Virus record (IMG/VR): IMGVR_UViG_3300046450_000984
Span: 1 to 32,788 of that record
Strand: one strand, 5' to 3'
Source: a virus
Length of the DNA stretch: 32,788 nt
The first letter of the stretch is position 1; the number at the start of each line of letters is the position of its first letter. A program made the position numbers and the translations under genes. Below are positions 72-32,746 of this stretch, piece after piece. Below the pieces are notes generated by a model. It saw only the letters and a list, made by a program, of their open reading frames with translations, was not told the origin of the DNA and ran no database searches.

Positions 72-248
72 ATGCGTTGTGTAATCTGTGATGTGCTGCT
101 TTCAGCAAAACATAGACTTGACATATGTCAGGTTTGTAATGTAGCTGTGAGAGAAGCTAGTACAGACTACTATTTGCTCGATAGTGATACAGAATTTGTT
201 AACCTGTTGCAAAGGATAAGAAAATGCCAATCACTCGATACGGAATAG
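72..248 (+). CDS. Small zinc-ribbon protein, 58 aa
   Basis: A 58-residue frame begins MRCVICDVLLSAK and has two CxxC pairs (Cys3/Cys6 and Cys19/Cys22) 12 residues apart, the pattern of a small treble-clef or zinc-ribbon fold. Such tiny Cys4 proteins are common in the early regions of podoviruses, usually with unknown function; nucleic-acid or protein binding is the likely role. The start ATG follows a purine-rich GGTGGGTAAGAG stretch. It is the first complete gene at the left edge of the replication operon, and the next gene's Shine-Dalgarno lies about 25 bases downstream of its stop. The zinc-binding reading is inferred from the cysteine spacing only. Confidence 0.6.
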   Translation: MRCVICDVLLSAKHRLDICQVCNVAVREASTDYYLLDSDTEFVNLLQRIRKCQSLDTE

Positions 249-4485: not shown

Positions 4486-4934
4486 TGGCTAATAATATAG
4501 GATACCTCGAAGGCGTGATGCACTATGCTTTTATCTTCGAGAAGAAGGACAAGTATGATCGCTGGAGCGTGGCACTTGTGCTTGAAGGTGATCAGATTAA
4601 AAACGCGAAGAAGTTTGGAGTTAAAATCAACCAGAGTGAGGATAAGTACGACGGTCTTCCGCACGTTCAGCTGAAGAGCGGTTTTCAGCCTAAACTCTTT
4701 AATGCTGACGATACCGACTACTCCGGCCCGACCATGCTGGCTAACGGTAGTCGCGGCGTTGTAAGGATTACCCAACGCCCTTACGACAACAAGTTCGGCA
4801 AGGGTATTACCACCTACATGAATGCTGTTAAGATTACCAAGCCTATTGAGTATCAGAGTGAAGAAGGCTCTGGTAGTTTTGGCAGCGACTCTGAAGAAAA
4901 CATCTTTACCGAGAACAAGGCAGATGAATTCTAA
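4485..4934 (+). CDS. Single-stranded DNA-binding protein (gp2.5-like)
   Basis: The 149-residue product has a beta-rich core, including GYLEGVMHYAFIFEKKDKYD, a run rich in Lys and aromatic residues, and a very acidic C-terminal tail that ends in aromatic DEF. This layout is that of phage SSBs such as T7 gp2.5, whose acidic tail recruits polymerase and helicase. Sequence identity to gp2.5 is not obvious, so the call rests on the tail, the length and the place directly after DNA polymerase with a 1-base TGATG overlap. It would coat single-stranded DNA and help recombination. It overlaps the endonuclease gene by 11 bases. Confidence 0.8.
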   Translation: MANNIGYLEGVMHYAFIFEKKDKYDRWSVALVLEGDQIKNAKKFGVKINQSEDKYDGLPHVQLKSGFQPKLFNADDTDYSGPTMLANGSRGVVRITQRPYDNKFGKGITTYMNAVKITKPIEYQSEEGSGSFGSDSEENIFTENKADEF

Positions 4935-5574
4935 GACCCCTGACCAAGATTATGGGCATTGGGATACTGACCTGGTAGGCGAGTTTCACCCGGAGGATCA
5001 TCTGGGTTTCGTCTACCAGATCACCCGTCTTGACTCTGGACGTTCTTACATAGGTTGCAAGCACCTGTGGAAGTACTCCAAAGGCAAGCGGAAAGCTGCA
5101 AGCGAGTGGCGTAACTACGTAAGCAGCAGCAACTATCTCAAGCCTGAAATCAAGGAGCTTGGAAAAGAAGCATTCTCTTTCAAAATCCTGATGCTCTGTG
5201 ATAACAAGCGAAACCTGTACTACAACGAACTCAAACTACAGGTAGAGCTGGGCGTCCTAGAAGACGACGATTATTACAACGCCAACATAGGCGGCATAAG
5301 ATTTTACCGTCCGGTTAGAAGTTATCTTAACCCTGAGCTGAGAGCTAAGCTTAGTGCTAATGCGAGGGGCATTGATAACGGCAGATACCACGGCCCGTTC
5401 ACTGTTACGTTTAAGAACGGAACGGCTATCAGGGTAGAAGATAAAACCCTGAAGGACTTTTGCGAAGAGAACGGTCTTAGCACATCTTCCCTGTACAGGG
5501 TTCGGAAGGGTCAGAGAAAAACTCACAAAGGTATAATCAAGGTGGAATATGACAATGAACTCAAAGAAAATTGA
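4924..5574 (+). CDS. GIY-YIG family endonuclease with NUMOD-like C-terminus
   Basis: From ATG 4924 the protein is 216 residues. The N-terminal half shows a GIY-YIG nuclease pattern: GFVYQI (28-33) and SYIGC (41-45), an Arg/Lys-rich helix, FSFKIL, then NELKLQ with Glu102 in the place of the metal-binding glutamate, and YNANIGG. The C-terminal part, with LKDFCEENGLSTSSLYRVRKG and HKGI, looks like a nuclease-associated modular DNA-binding helix (NUMOD type). Such proteins are often called homing or Seg-like endonucleases. Here it sits within the replication operon between SSB and exonuclease, where T7 has the endonuclease I gene, so a role in recombination or host DNA breakdown is equally possible. 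Start chosen for AAGGCAG and the short overlap. Confidence 0.78.
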   Translation: MNSKTPDQDYGHWDTDLVGEFHPEDHLGFVYQITRLDSGRSYIGCKHLWKYSKGKRKAASEWRNYVSSSNYLKPEIKELGKEAFSFKILMLCDNKRNLYYNELKLQVELGVLEDDDYYNANIGGIRFYRPVRSYLNPELRAKLSANARGIDNGRYHGPFTVTFKNGTAIRVEDKTLKDFCEENGLSTSSLYRVRKGQRKTHKGIIKVEYDNELKEN

Positions 5575-29084: not shown

Positions 29085-30530
29085 TCAGACAATTCCCTTG
29101 CTGGCGTATTCTATTTTGGAATCAAAATTGTATTTTCTAAATACCGCTTGGTTTCTCATCCGCTCTCCGTAGCGTTCTACAGAGAGAGCAGCGTAGCGCA
29201 TGGCGCTTAAAAGATCGTCTTTGACTGGCACCACCCGTCCATTTTTTCGATGGTAGAGACGCAGCTCCTCAAGAGTTTCAACACATGAGTTAAAAATTTG
29301 GAGGCGACCAGTTTCAAAGCGTTGCAGAAGGATGCTAATCCCTGCTTCAATTGAGTTATTACCATGAGTTTCCCCGTCAGCTGGTGGGTTAGAAAAATGC
29401 TGAGCCAGCATATAAACGCTCAGGTCTCTGTACTGCTGCGCCAGCTGTACCCCTGAGCCTTTATCATGTTGCAGCCCGTCGTGTGGGAAAGCTACAGGAA
29501 TGCCAGGAGTTCTAGCATTAATAACCGCCGCGTGAGTTAAAGGAGTTTCCTTGTTACGTCGGTATTCGTCGTAAATATATATAATATCGTTGTCAGGATC
29601 GTAAGCTGCCCAAGATACCGCAGTTGGGTGGTCATAACCAAAGTCGATAGCCGCCAGCCTGGGAAAATGCTCAGATAGTTTGAACTCTTCGCAAGTCACA
29701 TTCTCTTCTGAGACAGGGTAGACCAATCCTGAACCAAAGACTGGAATACCTCTGGAACGCATATCACGCTCTGCTGGGCTATATACTGCCAGCAGCTGCT
29801 CCTTGGTCTTGGCATTTAGATGCTCTACATCGTCCCAAGTAGCAGTAACCAGAGCCTGGCCCGGTTTCAGCTCGTTCATAAATAAGCTAACTACCGAAGT
29901 CATCCCCTTTTCAGGGGTAAAGGTCATGTAAACTACACCATCTGTATCAGCTGTTCGGGTAATGCACTGAGAGAAAATCTCAGGCTTCGGCTCTTCATCC
30001 AACCAGACAACATCTACCGCTTCACCCATAAACTTCTCAAATCCCTGCTCATAGGCTTTAAAGCTTATCTGCGAGTTTTTACCAGACTTGTGCCTGACAA
30101 GCGCGGCACTAAAAGCGTTGGGAACACCTGGTTTACGCACCGTGTCCACTATACAGTCTAGCGGGATGGCCCCGGTCCCTTTCTGACTAGGGTCCTGCGG
30201 AGGGCCGAAAAGTTCTTTTTGAATAATATCTCTGGTAGTGTCGTTAGACTCACCAGCTACCCATACTCTGACCGGACGATCAAATCTACGCCCTTTCCAC
30301 CAATCAGGATACTCCCCGGTCATGTGGTAAGCGGTCTCTGCCGCTCCACAATAGGTCTTACCGACTCGGTTAGCAGCCATCAAAATACGCTGGGGACAGT
30401 CCTCCCCCTCCTGGTGAAACTTCACCTGATACGGATAGGGAGCGTACTGCTTAATTCGATTGGTCTTAACCCGTCGCTGCTTCTCTTTAAGAAGTTCTAG
30501 CGCCTTAGCTTGATTGTTTGGGGTTGGCAA
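29085..30530 (-). CDS. Terminase large subunit
   Basis: The 481-residue ATPase and nuclease packages DNA into heads. Visible motifs are the Walker A-like MAANRVGKT (Lys58), Walker B VVWLDEEPKPE, a coupling-motif region near YMTFTPEKG, and the RNase H-like nuclease with AAIDFGYDHPTAV and the C-terminal KDDLLSAMRYAAL. The reading frame starts at TTG 30530 within the terS gene, with a weak GTGG upstream; no in-frame ATG occurs before the ATPase motif. The 26-base overlap with TerS suggests translational coupling. Confidence 0.95.
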   Translation of the reverse strand: MPTPNNQAKALELLKEKQRRVKTNRIKQYAPYPYQVKFHQEGEDCPQRILMAANRVGKTYCGAAETAYHMTGEYPDWWKGRRFDRPVRVWVAGESNDTTRDIIQKELFGPPQDPSQKGTGAIPLDCIVDTVRKPGVPNAFSAALVRHKSGKNSQISFKAYEQGFEKFMGEAVDVVWLDEEPKPEIFSQCITRTADTDGVVYMTFTPEKGMTSVVSLFMNELKPGQALVTATWDDVEHLNAKTKEQLLAVYSPAERDMRSRGIPVFGSGLVYPVSEENVTCEEFKLSEHFPRLAAIDFGYDHPTAVSWAAYDPDNDIIYIYDEYRRNKETPLTHAAVINARTPGIPVAFPHDGLQHDKGSGVQLAQQYRDLSVYMLAQHFSNPPADGETHGNNSIEAGISILLQRFETGRLQIFNSCVETLEELRLYHRKNGRVVPVKDDLLSAMRYAALSVERYGERMRNQAVFRKYNFDSKIEYASKGIV

Positions 30531-30966
30531 ATTTTACCACTTTCTCGTCTTTGAGAAGCTCGTGCAACTGCTTTTCCAGCTCTGCGTCAGTTAGGTCTGT
30601 AGCATCCTTAATGACCCGCTCCTGCCGCTGTACAGCGTCGTAGCCAGCCCTAGATAGGATATCTCTGGCGGCATTCAACCGTACATTCTCTGATTCAGCC
30701 GTCTGCATGAGCTGTTCGAGTACATTGAGAGCCAAGGTTGCAGTCTCGGAGACCCTATCCTTAATCCGATTCTCAATGTGCAGCCAGAGGTGCCGCTGTA
30801 GCCTGAGTGCCCTAGGACCAGCCTTAGTCTTAGAGTATCCAGCTTTGATAAAGGCGTCTTGAGCCGACAACTTGCCGTCTACAAGAGCATCTATAAAACC
30901 CTCTTCCAGTGCCGTAAGCTCTTTGTCTACGGGCTTAGGATTTCTATAGTCTACAAAATTGCTCAA
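30505..30966 (-). CDS. Terminase small subunit
   Basis: The 153-residue protein has an N-terminal helix-turn-helix-like region (LTALEEGFIDALVDGKLSAQ then AFIKAGYSKTKAGPRALRLQ), a central oligomerisation helix (SETATLALNVLEQLMQTAE), and a charged C-terminus that ends in LLKDEKVVKFANPKQSS. This is the usual layout of phage TerS, which recognises the packaging site and activates TerL. It starts with TTG (no useful ATG exists), with GGAG at a 7-9 base spacing. It is the first gene of the leftward operon; its start is about 55 bases downstream of the predicted transcription start. Confidence 0.88.
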   Translation of the reverse strand: MSNFVDYRNPKPVDKELTALEEGFIDALVDGKLSAQDAFIKAGYSKTKAGPRALRLQRHLWLHIENRIKDRVSETATLALNVLEQLMQTAESENVRLNAARDILSRAGYDAVQRQERVIKDATDLTDAELEKQLHELLKDEKVVKFANPKQSS

Positions 30967-31028
30967 TGTGTACGCTCCACAGAAGATATGGGATGCAGTC
31001 CCCGGGGGGGAGATAACCTCTTACTATA

Positions 31029-31057
31029 AGTATAAGGGGAAAACTATGGTGTGTCAA
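31029..31057 (-). promoter_or_regulatory. Consensus sigma70-type promoter for the virion unit
   Basis: On the minus strand TTGACA (31057-31052) is followed by a 17-base spacer and TATACT (31034-31029). This is a perfect -35 and a -10 with one mismatch at ideal spacing. Transcription would begin near 31022 and run into terS. A CAATGGTG repeat (31055-31062) overlaps the -35 box. Confidence 0.85.
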
Positions 31058-31088
31058 TGGTGAATATTGGTTATTTTCAATTTTCCCC
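31036..31088. repeat. Inverted repeat spanning the leftward promoter
   Basis: GGGGAAAA (31036-31043, inside the promoter spacer) is the exact reverse complement of TTTTCCCC at 31081-31088. A dimeric factor or a cruciform could link the two sides of the -35 box. Confidence 0.5.
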
Positions 31089-31203
31089 CAGAATGGAGCC
31101 AAAGGACATAATACCTCTTAAAATGCGCGGGGGGGTTCAGCGATTTCATTAGAAAGCTAACTAATCAACATTGATCAACATTGTCAACCAATCGAAGGCA
31201 ACG

Positions 31204-31298
31204 CAATGGTGCAACAACCCTGACCAATGGTGGCTCCTTGGCCACAGTGTTGCACAATTGTCCCAATGGTGTGGCAGGGCAATGGTGTGGCAATGGTG
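31204..31298 (+). repeat. Cluster of CAATGGTG repeats
   Basis: Five copies of CAATGGTG in the same direction lie at 31204, 31225, 31264, 31280 and 31291, with a sixth at 31055 over the -35 box of the leftward promoter. A seventh occurs in the GP88-like gene at 32449. They may be binding sites for a regulator or replication-initiation protein. Confidence 0.75.
31209..31255. repeat. Nested inverted repeats within the control region
   Basis: GTGCAACA (31209-31216) matches TGTTGCAC (31248-31255) in inverted form. Inside it GTGGC (31230-31234) matches GCCAC (31241-31245). The pair can form a large cruciform or RNA hairpin in the CAATGGTG cluster. Confidence 0.6.
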
Positions 31299-31552
31299 TT
31301 GCTATGTTGAAAATATCTAGGAGAGAGGGAGAGAGTGCGAAAGGGATATATAAAGATATCCTTATGCATTGATATATATAAACGGTACTATGTTACCGCA
31401 TAGCCCTAAAAGGGCCAGAAGGGCACCCTGTAGCGCCTCCATGCTTAGCATAGGTGACCATACCGGGCACCCTATAGATGGCCCCTGTAGCGCGTCCCTA
31501 GGGCCTGGGACAGACCAAGAACAAACTAAGGCAGAATAAATCACAATGTCGT

Positions 31553-31597
31553 CTTAATTGTGCCACAATTGCTCGATAGAGTATCACTATTGAAACA
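31553..31597 (+). promoter_or_regulatory. 45-bp palindromic element, copy 1
   Basis: Contains the perfect palindrome AATTGTG-C-CACAATT (31556-31570), then TTGCTCGATAGAGTATCA and TATTGAAAC. It is followed 25 bases on by ATG 31623. Copy 2 at 32673-32717 differs at only a few positions. TTGTGC with TATCAC 18 bases on could be a weak promoter overlapped by an operator. Confidence 0.7.
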
Positions 31598-31622
31598 ACA
31601 CACAACACAAGGAACCAAGCTT

Positions 31623-31820
31623 ATGACCATGCTTTACAACGTCACATATACCCAGCACCTTAACATGGCTGGCGGGTCTCGTACGTATGAGCAAGATGCG
31701 GGCGATTTTTACACACGGGAAGAGGCGGACAAAGTGGCCGCCGCGTGTGGAGGTACTGTCACCGAATGGCAAGCAACCCCAGAAGCCCTCTCCCAGCTGT
31801 ATGAAGAAGGTACGCTTTGA
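31623..31820 (+). CDS. Small hypothetical early protein, 65 aa
   Basis: From ATG 31623, preceded by AAGGAACC. It begins MTMLYNVTYTQHLNMAGGSR and carries TYEQDAGDFYTREEADKVAAACGGTVTEWQATPEAL, a small alpha/beta layout. It is the first gene of the rightward unit after the control region and lies just downstream of the palindromic element. No family is recognised. Early phage genes of this size often modify the host, but nothing in the sequence shows that here. Confidence 0.65.
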   Translation: MTMLYNVTYTQHLNMAGGSRTYEQDAGDFYTREEADKVAAACGGTVTEWQATPEALSQLYEEGTL

Positions 31821-32665: not shown

Positions 32666-32672
32666 AAAGCGC

Positions 32673-32717
32673 CTTAATTGTGCCACAATTGCTCTATAGG
32701 GTATCAATATTGAAACA
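32673..32717 (+). promoter_or_regulatory. 45-bp palindromic element, copy 2
   Basis: Same AATTGTG-C-CACAATT palindrome (32676-32690), followed by TTGCTCTATAGGGTATCA and TATTGAAAC. It is 8 bases after the GP88-like stop and 29 bases before the next ATG. High conservation outside coding sequence argues for a regulatory role. Confidence 0.7.
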
Positions 32718-32746
32718 CAACGACACATAAACTCAAAGGGTACAAA

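Follow-up and report, generated by a model that had tools for sequence, protein, structure and literature searches.

A conserved array of phased, directional repeats overlaps the late promoter upstream of terS in a LUZ24/PaP3-type phage and may be bound by the small terminase

A row of short, directional DNA repeats lies upstream of the capsid-and-packaging block of the phage genome analyzed here (a viral contig of 32,788 bases, hereafter the window). This row is a real cis-acting element, linked to the late promoter and conserved among related phages. A protein that switches the block probably docks on it, and the row may also mark the DNA for packaging. The reading that we tentatively prefer is an operator and packaging-junction array that is most likely bound by the small terminase, TerS; TerS is the predicted binder, and repression of the late genes and the start of packaging would be its effects. 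We infer both which protein meets this DNA and what function follows from the meeting.

The plus strand of the window encodes a T7-like primase-helicase, DNA polymerase A, a gp2.5-like SSB, a GIY-YIG nuclease, a Cas4-type exonuclease, ThyX, and ribonucleotide reductase, and the minus strand carries the virion genes, terL (large terminase, 29085–30530), and terS (small terminase, 30505–30966), the last two assigned by homology. terS encodes a helix-turn-helix (HTH) DNA-binding protein, is the first gene after the late promoter, and opens the capsid-and-packaging block. TerL is 47 to 56% identical to its counterparts in LUZ24/PaP3-like phages, Vibrio phages (e.g., KIT05), and the Pelagibacter phage EXVC032P. 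The TerS sequence matched the small terminases of NV1 (7joq, E = 4e-16) and PaP3 (6w7t, E = 2e-14), and its predicted fold also matched these proteins, with moderate model confidence. Among the phage proteins examined, neither an RNA polymerase nor a sigma factor was recognized. The GIY-YIG nuclease (SegE-like, 4822–5574) lies between the SSB and exonuclease genes in all nine related genomes; it is therefore probably a core gene in the position of T7 endonuclease I, not a mobile homing enzyme.

The array occupies the gap between terS on the minus strand and the early genes on the plus strand (30967–31623). This gap holds six exact copies of CAATGGTG, all on the plus strand, starting at 31055, 31204, 31225, 31264, 31280, and 31291. 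As the preliminary description had reported, five of them fall within 95 bp of noncoding DNA (31204–31298), and the sixth (31055–31062) overlaps the −35 hexamer of the terS promoter (31052–31057). The whole window contains 11 matches, against 1.1 expected, and the other five are intragenic (11414, 12139, 12886, 25156, and 32449). Across 2000 dinucleotide-shuffled versions of the gap, CAATGGTG never exceeded two copies, and in none of them did any 8-mer reach six. Several features had escaped the preliminary description, namely, a one-mismatch copy, CTATGGTG, at 31044–31051, CAACATTG at 31166 and 31176, CACAATTG at 31253, and the 11-bp pitch of the array. By sequence, CAACATTG and CACAATTG in the window are variants of a family-wide unit, CA[AC]NNTTG. 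The main array on the plus strand (31204–31298) thus consists of the five CAATGGTG copies and the CACAATTG copy, with start-to-start spacings of 21, 28, 11, 16, and 11, and the two CAACATTG units (31166–31183) have a pitch of 10 bp. Autocorrelation of the window at lag 10 and lag 11 exceeded that of all 100 shuffles.

The sigma70 promoter of terS and the late operon (31029–31057, minus strand) consists of TTGACA at 31052–31057, a 17-bp spacer, and TATACT at 31029–31034, and matches the consensus at 11 of 12 positions. The CAATGGTG copy over the −35 hexamer stands in register −5 in the terS sense and shares its CAA with TTGACA. The degenerate unit CTATGGTG lies in the promoter spacer exactly 11 bp from this copy, so that two units, separated by one turn, lie in the terS promoter.

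Scanning for relatives with GP88, with terS, and with an alignment of TerL gave 41 nonredundant terS-upstream regions. Read towards terS, CA[AC]NNTTG occurred 276 times in these regions (29 expected) and was present in all 41. CACCATTG/CAATGGTG was found 64 times where about 3 copies would be expected; CACTGTTG, CAACATTG, and CACAATTG were over-represented too. The lag-11 autocorrelation was 916 (91 expected), and 55 unit pairs were spaced at 11 bp (0.07 expected). In the terS sense, CACCATTG outnumbered CAATGGTG by 60 to 4, and the corresponding counts were 52 to 11 for CAACATTG and 11 to 0 for CACTATTG. Six CACCATTG units follow each other at exact 11-bp spacing in L110, and seven form a near-perfect tandem repeat with a 12-bp pitch in G002, a closed genome of 36.7 kb. 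Near-complete relatives have one dominant array, upstream of terS, and the array tracks terL/terS, not GP88. A palindromic (dimer) unit proposed by an expectation-maximization run was rejected because the orientation of the copies is strongly one-sided; the palindrome is probably an effect of scanning both strands. A motif search run without constraints collapsed onto the array periodicity itself, and a triple-unit scan of the genome collection gave, among the matches listed, only scattered and unrelated ones.

The promoter is conserved together with the array. Nearly every one of the 41 relatives has a near-perfect TTGACA-N17-TATAAT at the corresponding position, and a unit overlaps the −35 hexamer in 27 of 40 regions, where 0.8 would be expected; after thinning by TerS identity, the overlap was still found in 9 of 14 (0.32 expected). 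The overlapping units occur in only two registers relative to TTGACA, +4 (20 cases) and −5 (8 cases). Of all the evidence, this overlap points most strongly to an action of the array on the promoter. The preliminary description had proposed to look for the word in the control regions of relatives, and unit, pitch, orientation, and −35 overlap are indeed kept in about 40 divergent relatives, so the repeats are not peculiar to this genome.

Further elements surround the array. When 38 regions were aligned, conserved CCCCCAGAATGGACGCAAAGGACAT and GGGGGGGTC blocks appeared between the promoter and the array. In the window, the conserved block CCCCCAGAATGGAGCCAAAGGACAT lies just upstream of the promoter (31085–31109; CCCCAGAATGGA, mean column conservation 0.86), and a conserved G tract, GGGGGGGTTC, follows at 31129–31138 (GGGGGGTC in 29 of 41 regions). 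The CCCCCAGAATGGACGCAAAGGACAT and GGGGGGGTC blocks together (31085–31138) are strongly conserved and form a candidate cleavage or regulator site. Beyond the array, the same alignment contains an AT-rich element and then a GAGAGTGCG-type block, represented at the distal array edge of the window by the conserved AT-rich AAAATATCTA followed by GGAGAGAGGGAGAGAGTGCG (31310–31339). A 61-nt element on the plus strand precedes the first early gene (31550–31610); it combines a perfect inverted repeat, AATTGTG-C-CACAATT, with a CACTATTG/CAATATTG unit. Its second copy (32670–32730) is 84% identical and likewise stands in front of early genes, and the element is possibly an early control element. An early-side palindrome in G005 and G006 resembles that of the 61-nt element, and a smaller second group of units lies around it. 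No RNA family was detected by Rfam between 30900 and 32788.

A DNA-binding factor that acts on the late promoter had been suggested in the preliminary description, with the GP88-like protein and the small Cys4 proteins as candidates. The cis part of this proposal is strongly supported by the conservation described above; the named proteins are not supported. No array was found at 27 of 28 GP88 loci without terL (two units or fewer in 350 bp; some of these loci end near GP88), and the sole array-bearing one, L013, is probably a truncated clade member. Among the nine other genomes in the comparison, only one has a homologue of the Cys4 protein of the window (72–248). TerS, which had been overlooked, is a better candidate than either. 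When the proteins of nine genomes and Baldr were clustered, each of the ten had TerS and TerL, and a conserved repressor was not among the clusters. TerS, itself only a weak match to Terminase_2, was the only HTH protein recognized in G002, and scanning the other small G002 proteins one by one revealed no HTH family. In a set of 39 proteins, small or early and drawn from four genomes, a single 66-residue protein of G006 accounted for the winged-helix matches (HTH_39 and HTH_91). The position of terS directly behind the promoter, together with the HTH in its product, would be the usual layout of autoregulation, and directional units spaced one turn apart would suit a row of identical HTHs.

Known small terminases and genome ends also bear on this proposal. 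PaP3 TerS is a ring with nine HTHs that preferred its own cos DNA over scrambled DNA (PMC7672466), and the terS promoters of SPP1 fall within its pac region, which has direct repeats (PMC4737164). PaP3 and tf are distant relatives in which the genome end lies in the noncoding stretch upstream of terS: the PaP3 record opens with the cos sequence in this stretch, and the 186-bp terminal repeat of tf stops a few hundred bases upstream of terS. Packaging ends are mapped only in these two phages; G001 and G002 close as circles. Contig ends were dropped as evidence for packaging ends because they are scattered and G002 ends within its tandem repeat.

The array would be a cis-acting control element where the late operon headed by terS adjoins the early genes. 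It is built from a directional 8-bp unit, CA[AC]NNTTG, which recurs roughly once per helical turn and would allow copies of one protein to line up on one face of the DNA. The copy over the −35 hexamer would let an array-binding protein occlude the strong host sigma70 late promoter. If this protein is TerS, its assembly on the array would mark the concatemer junction for packaging, and its presence over the −35 hexamer would turn down the operon that encodes it. Several observations speak against TerS. Closely similar TerS proteins (L110, L111, and L117) are encoded beside arrays dominated by different unit variants, and the DNA-binding domain of SF6 TerS bound pac without sequence preference, the repeats being immaterial (PMC4737164). 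A pitch of 11 bp does not single out TerS, and several small early proteins without known function could bind the array. TerS is nevertheless the best single proposal for the binder, to be held with caution, and another regulator comes close behind.

It is quite possible that the array is an operator for such a different factor, either a host regulator that uses 11-bp direct repeats or a small early phage protein, which would keep the late promoter off until late infection. The selected −35 overlap is what an operator predicts. Moreover, something must time the late promoter, which has a sigma70 consensus, because no RNA polymerase or sigma factor was recognized in the phage proteins examined; temporal control in LUZ24-like phages awaits the identification of phage transcription factors, as stated for phage tf (PMC3517423). 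GTTC-N7-GTTC, the alphaproteobacterial LexA box (PMC3323433), is a direct repeat that shares the 11-bp pitch of the array, and its exact matches number 91 (0.4 expected) in 26 of the 41 relatives (e.g., L046, L072, and L123), where they point to other proteins and possibly to host SOS input into the late control regions. Such boxes, and likewise the Fur-box-like sequences of G001 and L135, may be recognized by host regulators or may be variants of the array itself. The LexA-type box is, however, missing from the window and its array. No recognized repressor is conserved in the genomes examined, and most units lie 80 to 350 bp upstream of the −35 hexamer, beyond the needs of simple repression.

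The repeats could also be iterons of a phage replication origin, an alternative already named in the preliminary description, whose initiator would open the AT-rich element, with the overlap of the terS promoter reflecting shared use of the DNA. The single dominant array between divergent gene blocks in each relative examined, the pitch of about one turn, and the conserved AT-rich element with its GAGAGTGCG-type block at the distal edge would all fit an origin. We consider it a real but less likely rival: no initiator protein was recognized, the stretch beside the array is only modestly enriched in AT (0.66 versus about 0.55), DnaA boxes are essentially absent (1 of 41 regions), and an overlap with the −35 hexamer of the late virion promoter is unexpected if the initiator is encoded elsewhere. 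Neutral tandem duplication, in which slippage would have multiplied functionless words in the noncoding gap, could account for the near-perfect 12-bp tandem repeat of G002 and for the fast turnover of unit composition among close relatives. It is highly improbable in view of the unit being kept with varying central bases, the one-sided orientation, and the fixed registers at the −35 hexamer; in addition, relatives that keep the unit share few 12-mers in their regions.

Short repeats at roughly helical pitch beside an AT-rich stretch, with promoter overlap, characterize the iteron origins of plasmids and lambdoid phages. The array resembles them in its pitch and its promoter overlap and lies beside a modestly AT-enriched stretch, but it is tied to terS and no initiator gene was recognized. 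The ribbon-helix-helix repressors MetJ and Arc bind tandem operators, in which 8-bp boxes are occupied cooperatively over the promoter. The array shares the tandem 8-bp boxes over a promoter but has a single unit orientation, and no ribbon-helix-helix repressor was recognized among the small phage proteins scanned. Packaging systems offer further parallels in layout. In the pac region of SPP1/SF6, direct repeats likewise occur in a region spanning the terS promoters, with an HTH TerS encoded alongside and its HTHs displayed on a ring (PMC4737164); the window TerS is an HTH protein by homology. By contrast, SPP1/SF6 pac has a few box pairs, whereas about 4 to 13 short one-turn units are present here, one of them on the −35 hexamer, in a phage of the LUZ24/PaP3 type. 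PaP3, a cos phage, and tf, with direct terminal repeats of 186 bp, have related TerS and TerL proteins. In both, strong sigma70 late promoters come after the genome end in the noncoding DNA upstream of terS, and PaP3 has three CTTAAG words with an 11-bp pitch between its late promoters. Unlike the window array, PaP3 and tf use a different word in far fewer copies.

In the NV1-like Pseudomonas phage Lyrsu02 (L304), CCTWAGG occurs 23 times in 47 kb. Ten of these copies are in the first 541 bp, between the start of the record and the late promoter (L304 1–560), and a CYTTAGG word lies on either side of the late −35 hexamer; the repeat word was found at none of the early promoters detected. Different words in one layout, seen in single genomes of the NV1-like and PaP3-like groups, suggest a shared principle. 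It is conceivable, though rather unlikely, that the small terminase is also a late-transcription switch that couples the start of packaging to the shut-down of virion genes through one phased array, which would both mark the packaging junction and cover the −35 hexamer. If this is true, a TerS switch would serve a phage family without a recognized polymerase, sigma factor, or repressor, and the NV1-like and PaP3-like groups would share the layout with other words. How late genes are timed in LUZ24-like phages with only host sigma70 promoters has been stated to be open (PMC3517423), and a compact conserved array on the late −35 hexamer with an obvious candidate binder makes the question testable. 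The array also offers a defined DNA for studying sequence-specific recognition by ring-shaped small terminases, which is a disputed point.

Binding sites of other known regulators were also sought in the 41 regions. CRP, E. coli-type LexA, DnaA, and CtrA boxes were absent or rare, and the PHO box (PhoB), TGTCA-N6-TGTCA, was found in none. Fur-box-like sequence was not found in the window, and Fur-box-like palindromes (GAGAATGATTCTCATTTGC) lie inside the array of G001 (36380–36720, L138) and in L135, with three to four in one relative. In an unrelated phage group (L310 near 7950, L311 near 12000, L164 at 4270, and L159 at 224), PHO-box-like TGTCACA-N4 arrays with an 11-bp pitch lie upstream of TTGACA promoters.
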